DNA from: Anaerorhabdus furcosa
GTDB lineage: Bacteria; Bacillota_I; Bacilli_A; Erysipelotrichales; Erysipelotrichaceae
Length of the DNA: 64,000 nt
Assembly: GCF_900167375.1 (NCBI RefSeq)
Contig: NZ_FUWY01000006.1
Span: 62,001 to 126,000, forward strand
Reading direction: 5' to 3'
Shown: positions 60,271 to 63,400 of the stretch, piece after piece
Numbering within the stretch: position 1 is the first letter of the stretch
How the letters are laid out: each line of letters opens with the position of its first letter
Made by a program: the position numbers and the translations under genes
The notes under the pieces: model-generated
What the model saw: the letters and a program-made list of their open reading frames with translations, nothing else
The model's database searches: none
Told to the model about the DNA's origin: nothing

Positions 60271-60278
60271 CTAATAAA

Positions 60279-60304
60279 TGAAAAGAACTGTTAATAGTAA
60301 CAGT
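60279..60304 (-). terminator. Intrinsic terminator after ppdK
   Basis: ACTGTTA (60287-60293) and TAACAGT (60298-60304) form a seven-base stem; on the minus strand TCTTTTC follows. It lies 16 bases past the ppdK stop. Confidence 0.6.
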
Positions 60305-60319
60305 CCTAATCCCTATAAT

Positions 60320-60739
60320 TTATTTTTTAGTTGTTTTTTTAGCAACTGTTTTTTTTGCTACAGCTTTTTTAGCAACAGGTTTCTTTGCTACTGCTTTTTT
60401 AGCAACTGGTTTTTTTGCTACAGCTTTTTTAGCTACTGCTTTTTTAGCAACAGGTTTTTTAGCTTCAACTTTTTTAGCTACTGCTTTCTTAGCAACTGGT
60501 TTTTTTGCTACAGCTTTTTTAGCAACTGGTTTTTTAGCTTCAACTTTCTTAGCCACTGCTTTTTTAGCAACTGGTTTCTTAGTTTCAACTTTTTTAGCTA
60601 CTGCTTTCTTAGCAACTGGTTTTTTTGCTACAGCTTTTTTAGCTACTGGTTTTTTAGCTTCAACTTTCTTAGCCACTGCCTTTTTAGCTACTGGTTTTTT
60701 TGCTACTGCTTTCTTAGCTACTGGTTTTTTTGCTACCAT
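60320..60739 (-). CDS. Candidate nested histone-H1-like protein (internal start in ppdK)
   Basis: The last 139 codons of ppdK can be translated alone from ATG at 60737-60739. AAGGAGG (60748-60754) is eight bases upstream, as good as any SD in the window. The product, [15 protein letters not shown]..., is almost only Lys, Ala, Val and Pro and resembles bacterial H1-like proteins such as chlamydial Hc2 or Bordetella BpH1, which condense DNA. It could be an ancestral separate gene fused in frame, or a nested gene still made by internal initiation. Free expression is inferred and not shown. Confidence 0.45.
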
Positions 60740-63400
60740 TCTATTAGCCTCCTTCTTAGCATTTTGTTCCGAATCATATTTGATTGCAGCTTGTGCTGCA
60801 GCCAATCTAGCAATTGGCACACGATAAGGTGAACAAGATACATAAGTTAATCCTACGCGATGACAGAACTCAATAGAGCTTGGATCCCCTCCGTGCTCAC
60901 CGCATATGCCCAATTTAATATTTGGACGAGTTTGTCTGCCTAATCTAGCAGCCATCTCGACTAACTTACCCACTCCTTTTTGGTCTAATCTAGCAAATGG
61001 ATCTTGCTCATAGATTTTCTTATCATAATAATCTGATAAGAATTGACCAGCATCGTCACGACTGAAACCAAATGTCATTTGAGTTAAGTCGTTTGTTCCA
61101 AAACTGAAGAACTCAGCTTCTTTTGCTATTTCATCTGCAAGTAATGCAGCTCTTGGAATTTCAATCATTGTACCAACCATGTAATTTAGTTTAGCTCCTG
61201 ATTCTTTAATAATTGAATCTGCTGTGCTAATTACGATGTCTTTTACATATTTTAATTCAGCAACTTCTCCAACAAGTGGAATCATAATTTCAGGTACAAT
61301 ATTGTACTTAGGATGTTTTTTGTTTACATTAATTGCTGCTTCAATTACAGCACGAGTTTGCATTTCTGCAATTTCTGGATAAGTAACACTTAAACGACAT
61401 CCACGATGACCCATCATTGGATTAAATTCATGAAGTGATGCAATAACTTGTTTAAGTTCATTAACAGTCATTTTCATTTCATGTGCTAATTCTTCAATAT
61501 CTTTTTCATTTGTTGGTAAGAATTCATGCAATGGTGGATCTAAGTAACGAATTGTTACTGGACGGTTTTCCATTGCTTCGTAAATTCCTTCAAAATCTCC
61601 ACGTTGCATTGGAAGTAATTTATCTAATGCAGCACGGCGATGTTCTTCATCACTTGAAACAATCATTTCTCTTACTACTTTAATACGGTTTGCATCAAAG
61701 AACATATGTTCAGTACGTACAAGTCCAATACCTTCTGCACCAAATAGAATTGCTTGTCTAGCATCATTTGGTGTATCAGCATTTGTTCTTACTTTCATTG
61801 TACGACGAGCATCAGCCCATTTCATAAATGTATCAAAATCACCAGAAATAGATGCAGGAACAGTTTTAATTGCTTGTCCATAAATATTTCCAGTTGAACC
61901 ATCTAATGAAATGAAATCTCCTTCGTGATATTGAATACCACCCACTTCGAAGTAGTGTTCTTTCTCATTTATTTTAATTTCGCCACATCCCGATACGCAA
62001 CAACGACCCATACCACGAGCAACTACTGCTGCATGTGATGTCATACCACCACGTACTGTTAAGATACCTTGAGCAACATGCATACCTTCAATATCTTCAG
62101 GACTTGTTTCTAAACGAACTAAGATAACTTTTTTACCCTTATTTGATTCAATAATAGCACTTTCAGCTGTGAATACAATTTGTCCACAAGCAGCACCAGG
62201 TGATGCAGGAAGTGCACTAGCAATTGGTTTAACTGCTTGCATTTCATAAGCATCAAATTGAGGATGCAATAAAGAATCCAAAGACTTAGGATCAACCATC
62301 ATAAGTGCTTGATCTTTTGTAATTAGTTTTTCTTTTACCATGTCACATGCAATTTTTAATGCTGCAGCTGCAGTACGTTTACCATTACGAGTTTGAAGCA
62401 TATAAAGTTTACCCTCTTCAATAGTAAATTCCATATCTTGCATATCTTTATAATGTTTCTCTAAACGACTACAAATTTCTGTAAATTGTTTATATGCTTT
62501 TGGCATAATATTTTTAAGTTCATTAATAGTTTGAGGTGTACGAATACCAGCAACAACATCTTCACCTTGAGCATTCATTAAGAATTCTCCAAATAATTTG
62601 TTTTCTCCAGTAGCTGGATTTCTTGTAAATGCAACTCCAGTACCACAATCATCACCCATATTACCAAATACCATGGATTGAACATTAACTGCTGTTCCCC
62701 AAGAACTTGGAATATCATTCATCTTACGATAGAAAATAGCACGTGGATTATTCCAAGATTTAAACACTGCTTCAACTGATTTTACAAGTTGAGTTTTTGC
62801 ATCTGTAGGGAAATCCTCTTTTAAGTTTTCACGATAGAATGCTTTAAACTTGATTACTAAATCTTTTAAATCATCCGCTGTTAAATCAGTATCCAAAGTA
62901 ATTCGTTTTTCTTCTTTCATTTCATCAATAAGTTCTTCAAAACGACTTTTTGGAAGTCCCATAACAACATCCGCAAACATTTGGATGAAACGACGATAGC
63001 TATCGTAAGCAAAACGTGGATTATTTGTTTTCTTTGCGATTGTTTCAACTACTTCATCATTAATACCAAGATTTAAGATTGTATCCATCATCCCTGGCAT
63101 TGAAGCACGAGATCCAGAACGTACAGATACAAGAAGTGGATTATCTTTACTTCCCATCTTTTTCCCTGTAAGTTTTTCTAGAGCTTCTACATTTTGGAAA
63201 ATTTCTTTTTTAATTAAATCACTAATTTTTTCTCCATCATTGTAGTAAGCAGTACATGCTTCAGTAGTAACTGTAAATCCTTGTGGTACAGGCATTCCTA
63301 AACTTGTCATCTCTGCAAGATTAGCACCCTTTCCTCCCAAAAGGTCACGCATTGATCCATTACCTTCTGAGAATTTGTAAACGTATTTTTTTGTTGGCAT
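60320..63400 (-). CDS. ppdK: Pyruvate, phosphate dikinase fused to a histone-H1-like tail
   Basis: PPDK interconverts pyruvate, ATP and phosphate with PEP, AMP and pyrophosphate. Residues 1-887 are a complete enzyme: ATP-grasp N-terminus ([21 protein letters not shown]), phosphohistidine loop ([16 protein letters not shown]), and the PEP/pyruvate barrel with [16 protein letters not shown] and [18 protein letters not shown], where relatives end at about 875-880 residues. Residues 888-1026 are 27 pentapeptide repeats (mostly VAKKP or VAKKA) rich in Lys and Ala. The linker codons for KKEANR carry an AAGGAGG SD ahead of an internal ATG. GGAGG precedes the main start. Confidence 0.93.
60332..60736 (-). 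repeat. Tandem array of 27 fifteen-base units in ppdK
   Basis: 27 units of 15 bases each encode one pentapeptide ([25 protein letters not shown] or VAKKT). A longer period is visible: blocks of P-A-P-A-V units of 75 bases recur, with shortened blocks in the middle. Synonymous codon differences (AAA/AAG, GCT/GCA, GTT/GTA) show it is not a perfectly recent expansion. There are no spacers, so it is not a CRISPR array. Confidence 0.95.
60748..60754 (-). promoter_or_regulatory. Internal Shine-Dalgarno in ppdK
   Basis: AAGGAGG on the minus strand, eight bases before the in-frame ATG at 60739. It is written by the codons for Lys-Lys-Glu-Ala in the linker between the enzyme and the repeat tail. Confidence 0.6.

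Follow-up and report, generated by a model that had tools for sequence, protein, structure and literature searches.

A ppdK gene fused in frame to a histone H1-like repeat with a ribosome-binding site and candidate start codon of its own

Several described bacterial proteins resemble the element studied here, a histone H1-like repeat fused in frame to the end of ppdK, the gene for pyruvate phosphate dikinase (PPDK), in Anaerorhabdus furcosa. The open reading frame (ORF), ppdK::H1, lies in a 64,000-nucleotide stretch of contig NZ_FUWY01000006.1 (positions 62,001 to 126,000), hereafter the window. Chlamydial Hc2 (hctB; PF07382, NF038052) is a separate DNA-binding protein (PMC2848022). The window repeat matches PF07382 at 89.3 bits (gathering cut-off, 40), a low-complexity match and so weak evidence of homology; it is fused to PPDK and, at 64.5 bits, falls below the curated cut-off of 135 for NF038052. 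The H1-like proteins of Bordetella and Burkholderia (Burkholderiales model NF038053) are free Lys/Ala repeat proteins similar in size to the window segment, which scores 49.6 bits against a curated cut-off of 80. In Pseudomonas AlgP and PhaF, too, a second domain carries an H1-like tail of Lys/Ala/Pro repeats, and these proteins bind DNA; the KPAA repeats of AlgP bind DNA, and AlgP associates with polyphosphate granules (PMC9239181). In the window, by contrast, the repeat is attached to a catalytic enzyme of metabolism and has its own ribosome-binding site (RBS) and start codon. Salmonella has pairs of N-terminal proteoforms that arise from in-frame internal starts (Ribo-RET; PMC11005335). The layout proposed for ppdK::H1 is the same, one ORF with two in-frame starts, but its inner ORF corresponds to a separate gene in relatives rather than to a shortened enzyme. 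We found no description of a PPDK-H1 fusion or a lysine-tailed PPDK in the literature searched.

In the assembly, a complete PPDK is followed in the same frame by an H1-like segment. With about even confidence, we read ppdK::H1 as an in-frame fusion with a former downstream H1-like gene that has kept its start, probably giving two products and nucleic-acid binding. TIGR01828 covers residues 4-873 at 1431 bits (cut-off, 843) and is matched over positions 1-865 of 865, which makes the enzyme full-length and above the equivalog cut-off. The alignment to the solved PPDKs ends at residue 874, and PPDKs of the host family usually end at about 875 residues. The region of the histidine-bearing motif is present in the sequence. 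An earlier note on this DNA had described a full-length PPDK followed by 139 repeat residues from an in-frame ATG, with AAGGAGG eight bases upstream, and the profile match and coordinates bear this out.

The candidate internal start site has a strong RBS. Across 464 kb of this genome, anti-Shine-Dalgarno duplex energies were calculated for every in-frame ATG that lies 240 nt or more within an ORF of 150 codons or longer. The Shine-Dalgarno (SD) motif at 60754-60748 (-11.9 kcal/mol) ranks first of 2641 such sites, where the next reaches -10.1 and the median is -1.5. Of 351 gene starts, 7% have an SD as strong. The site reads AAGGAGG CTAATAGA ATG, its start region is mostly unpaired in RNA folding (mean 0.66), and the sole methionine of the tail stands exactly at the start of the repeat. 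The host family yielded 51 PPDK tails that are rich in lysine and 10 or more residues long; of these, the window tail alone has an in-frame ATG, and an SD-like motif occurs in none of the other 50.

These features could also belong to a fusion without nested expression, in which the H1-like segment is made only within the enzyme and has its role only as a tail, while SD and ATG would be left over from the former gene start or be an accident of codon choice. We consider this unlikely but credible. Given lysine-glutamate, AAG-GAG arises in about 5% of cases by codon usage (AAG 0.25, GAG 0.19), so the motif alone is not proof. Internal starts within a translated ORF also face competition from elongating ribosomes, and the long-tailed PPDKs of G072 (120 residues), G106 (83) and G089 (95) have neither an adjoining free H1 gene nor an internal SD, which shows that a tail can persist without them. 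Against this reading stand the rank of the SD, the position of the methionine, and a layout that is the same as at the starts of free H1-like genes.

Such free genes are found in related genomes. In g32, a large sister genus in which 48 genomes have a readable ppdK 3' end, a separate H1-like ORF lies directly downstream of ppdK in 13. Twelve of these have an ATG and follow ppdK after 4-76 nt; the thirteenth, in G099, is degenerate and lacks one. Their SDs range from -5.7 to -16.3 kcal/mol and most are clear. The start sites in G103 (AAGAAGGAGGAAGTGGCAAG-ATGGTGGCAAA) and G098 are similar to the window site. G099 (L135) has ATA where its relatives have ATG in the H1-like frame after ppdK, beside a 71-residue PPDK tail; this frame is possibly a decaying free gene.

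The H1-like segment occupies the place of a free gene of two other genera, g32 and g3. A block of valS-hydrolase-ppdK-...-thrS-lipoprotein is shared. The window genome has valS-hydrolase-ppdK::H1-ferritin-thrS-lipoprotein, and G103 has valS-hydrolase-ppdK-H1-glpK-thrS-lipoprotein, with similar orders in G104, G105 and G090. In G002 (L130) and G185 (L128) of genus g3, the order is valS-H1-mscL-thrS, with a free H1-like gene, and ppdK lies elsewhere on the genome. Judged by position, the window tail is that free H1 gene, fused to ppdK. This argument is independent of low-complexity similarity. A nested gene should have a strong RBS with an in-frame start inside the outer ORF, and should occur as a separate gene at the same place in relatives; both were found.

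The separate orthologues that the earlier note had sought as support thus exist, after ppdK in g32 and apart from it in g3. The pattern that it took to speak against nesting, a tail always fused and without an SD, is seen only for other, irregular PPDK tails. Its proposal of an enzyme-nucleoid protein fusion with a nested gene is thus partly supported, and is best recast as the fusion of two ancestrally separate neighbors that hangs on a single base; initiation at 60739, a free product, DNA tethering and multimerisation through the tail are predictions of that proposal.

That base lies in a run of four A residues near the end of ppdK. One extra A would restore a ppdK stop, which means that the fusion depends on one base of a draft assembly. 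The frame opened by the inserted A meets further stops (TAA-TAG) in the spacer GAAGGAGG and then the ATG, a layout that matches the relatives. This suggests that the fusion event was a one-base deletion in the A-run, as far as sequence can indicate. The missing A might instead be an assembly or sequencing error, with AAAAA truly at 60765-60762, ppdK ending there and the H1-like gene an ordinary separate neighbor. Such an error would reproduce the arrangement of the 13 g32 genomes, with ...DSEQKC-TAA before the SD and more stops in the spacer. However, four A residues are a short run for indel errors, the ORFs around the ppdK end are intact, and the assembly comprises 11 contigs at 96% completeness. 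An error is less likely than a real deletion, and we hold it to be decidedly improbable. Either way, the ATG at 60739 would most simply be an inherited gene start.

The tail is strongly basic and unusually regular. The methionine at 60739-60737 is followed by 138 residues, including 56 lysines, 37 alanines, 27 valines and 10 prolines, and the 139-residue segment has a pI of 11.0. Its DNA is a nested tandem array, with a 15-nt pentad and a 120-nt higher-order unit at 90% match. Between pentads pN/pS is 0.21, which indicates stronger conservation of the repeat at the protein level than at the DNA level. The fraction of lysine pairs at five-residue spacing is 0.93 in the window tail and 0.20-0.42 in seven other PPDK tails of at least 50 residues; it is 0.86-0.91 in four free H1-like ORFs and 0.18-0.60 in the others. 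By this measure the window tail resembles the regular free proteins more than ordinary PPDK tails, although recent tandem expansion (the 120-nt unit) also produces regular arrays.

Within the host family, PPDK tails rich in lysine have a patchy distribution that takes in at least three genera. In g32, tails of at least 10 residues occur in 37 of the 48 readable ends and span 10-120 residues; in g3, 13 fetched PPDKs carry tails of 13-49 residues. Outside the family, the 80 top-ranking PPDK loci on named genome contigs all lack a tail. The PPDKs nearest to that of the window (79-80% identical; G035, G030 and G215-G217) are tailless, and the PPDK tree places the window among tailless enzymes, away from g32. 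Thus, tails arose more than once or were repeatedly lost.

This distribution would suit a tail that PPDK acquired through local expansion of repeats, with no neighboring gene involved, like the short tails of g32 and g3. The window linker is also similar to the start of the G077 tail, IKVDREQKAAKEAEKAAKKPAKK. Growth in place nevertheless seems improbable to us, as the window tail is far more regular than other long PPDK tails, begins with a methionine and an RBS, and sits at the place of the free H1 gene of two genera.

Other observations, besides the codon-usage chance given above, weigh against a fusion with a former neighbor whose start is still used. No second genome with a ppdK::H1 fusion was found, the remaining PPDK tails being irregular and without an RBS, so that the SD of the window has no fused counterpart to be compared with. 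Alternative frames of AT-rich DNA often hold stops. The regularity of free ORFs overlaps that of PPDK tails at the low end, and low-complexity repeats converge in evolution. Similarity between sequences of such composition counts for little, and the case therefore rests on position and the start site. Finally, an H1 gene is absent from the block in the closest tailless relatives, G035, G030 and G217, so that either common descent involved several losses or the gene came in by transfer.

The proposed fusion can be described step by step. ppdK and a downstream lysine-rich H1-like gene would once have been separate in a valS-hydrolase-ppdK-H1-...-thrS block. The likely last step was the loss of one A in the short A-run, which would have removed the ppdK stop and brought both genes into one frame, with the RBS and ATG of the H1 gene retained within the fusion. 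Ribosomes most likely still initiate at 60739, giving two products from one mRNA. One would be a PPDK of 113 kDa whose disordered tail gives each subunit about +51 of charge; the other would be a free 14.5-kDa H1-like protein, for which this is the only free source found in the genome. Like Hc2- and AlgP-type repeats, both the tail and the free protein probably attach to nucleic acid through their charge. Part of the PPDK pool may thereby be brought to the nucleoid or to RNA, with a possible effect on the enzyme. A broader proposal is tentative, and we lean against it. The gene for a nucleoid-type protein next to ppdK would have been captured in full, its start still functional, and a single mRNA would give rise to PPDK bound to polyanions as well as to the only free H1-like protein of the cell, in a ratio set by start-site competition; the lysine-rich PPDK tails of the family would then reflect recurrent selection for holding a pyrophosphate-linked enzyme on nucleic acid.

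Nucleic acid is the favored partner of the tail, by analogy, because both Hc2 and the AlgP repeats bind DNA. With its charge of about +51 and pI of 11, the segment could plausibly bind or condense DNA. The cationic tail might instead serve polyphosphate or other non-nucleic polyanions, as in AlgP, or cluster glycolytic and glycogen enzymes, which would be compatible with the other readings. The polyphosphate granule association of AlgP and similar tracts on the enolase, glycogen phosphorylase (GlgP) and GlgB of relatives point that way. The window genome, however, has no ppk1 or ppk2 match, which leaves polyphosphate unsupported as a target in this host, and no link between ppk1 presence and tails was evident by inspection across 72 genomes. 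We think a role apart from DNA improbable.

Table 1. Features at the 3' end of ppdK (window positions)
Feature	Position	Strand	Basis or remark
ppdK::H1 ORF	60320-63400	minus	1026 aa, ATG start
PPDK enzyme core, residues 1-874	60779..63400	minus	TIGR01828; Pfam matches PF02896, PF01326, PF00391; PDB 1dik/1kbl
Linker, 13 residues	60740..60778	minus	Y-D-x-E-Q extends the usual PPDK C-terminus (IKxDx); remainder carries the RBS
A4 run	60762..60765	minus	with one more A, ppdK would stop at ...DSEQKC-TAA, immediately ahead of GAAGGAGG
Shine-Dalgarno AAGGAGG	60748..60754	minus	spacer 8 nt, -11.9 kcal/mol
In-frame ATG where a free H1-like protein (139 aa) may start	60737..60739	minus	SD + ATG layout
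H1-like tail / putative nested ORF of pentads, 14.5 kDa, charge about +51	60323..60739	minus	PF07382 (HC2), composition, pentads
Common stop codon TAA	60320..60322	minus	shared by fusion and putative inner ORF
Terminator-like hairpin after the ppdK::H1 stop	60284..60307	minus	10 pairs; shuffled sequence gives about as many matches

H1-like tracts recur on several proteins in this lineage. A scan for four lysine pairs at five-residue spacing matched in 115 of 273 family genomes, although not all matches are H1-like and a reversed control pattern also matches often. The tracts given here are thus examples and no census, and the identities of the relatives' proteins were read by eye from sequence. 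H1-like Lys/Ala tracts were seen at the C-terminus of enolase (G113, L212), the N-terminus of GlgB (G111, L211) and the C-terminus of GlgP (G063, L185). Lys-rich N-termini occur in a small conserved family (INWKKWEAHNMNWLYIEVNAGDLM...; L194, L197, L201, L202, L206, L207 and L209), and one L20 has a C-terminal tract (G068). RpoD N-termini are also among the sites of such tracts. Topoisomerase I (TopA) of relatives has Lys-rich C-termini (L189, L191, L192, L200 and L205), a lysine-rich tail on a conserved enzyme as in the window PPDK; TopA acts on DNA, whereas PPDK does not.

In the window genome one further H1-like tract was found, on the primary sigma factor RpoD, outside the window (G000:C3:39723-41673, L041). 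It extends the N-terminus by about 230 residues and has a strong SD of its own (-10.0). The RpoD frames of relatives are mostly 390-460 residues, and longer in G033 (632), G002 (584) and G004 (516). We rejected RpoD as a second nested case, as no strong internal SD follows the H1-like N-terminus (best -6.0).

If the proposed history of ppdK::H1 is true, it is a gene fusion that retains the start of the inner gene, while related genera still show the two genes apart. A broader and little-described habit of the family also comes into view, in which core enzymes and the main sigma factor carry H1-like cationic tracts. The patchy PPDK tails open the role of a disordered cationic tail on a soluble metabolic enzyme to comparison between sister species.

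Two further ideas were set aside. PPDK is not the only phosphoenolpyruvate-pyruvate enzyme of the host, as pyruvate kinase is present in the genome. A plus-strand ORF of repeats at 60278-60832 (184 residues) was rejected as a gene, being a mirror artefact of the lysine codons opposite. Beyond the terminator-like hairpin lies a convergent ferritin-like gene.
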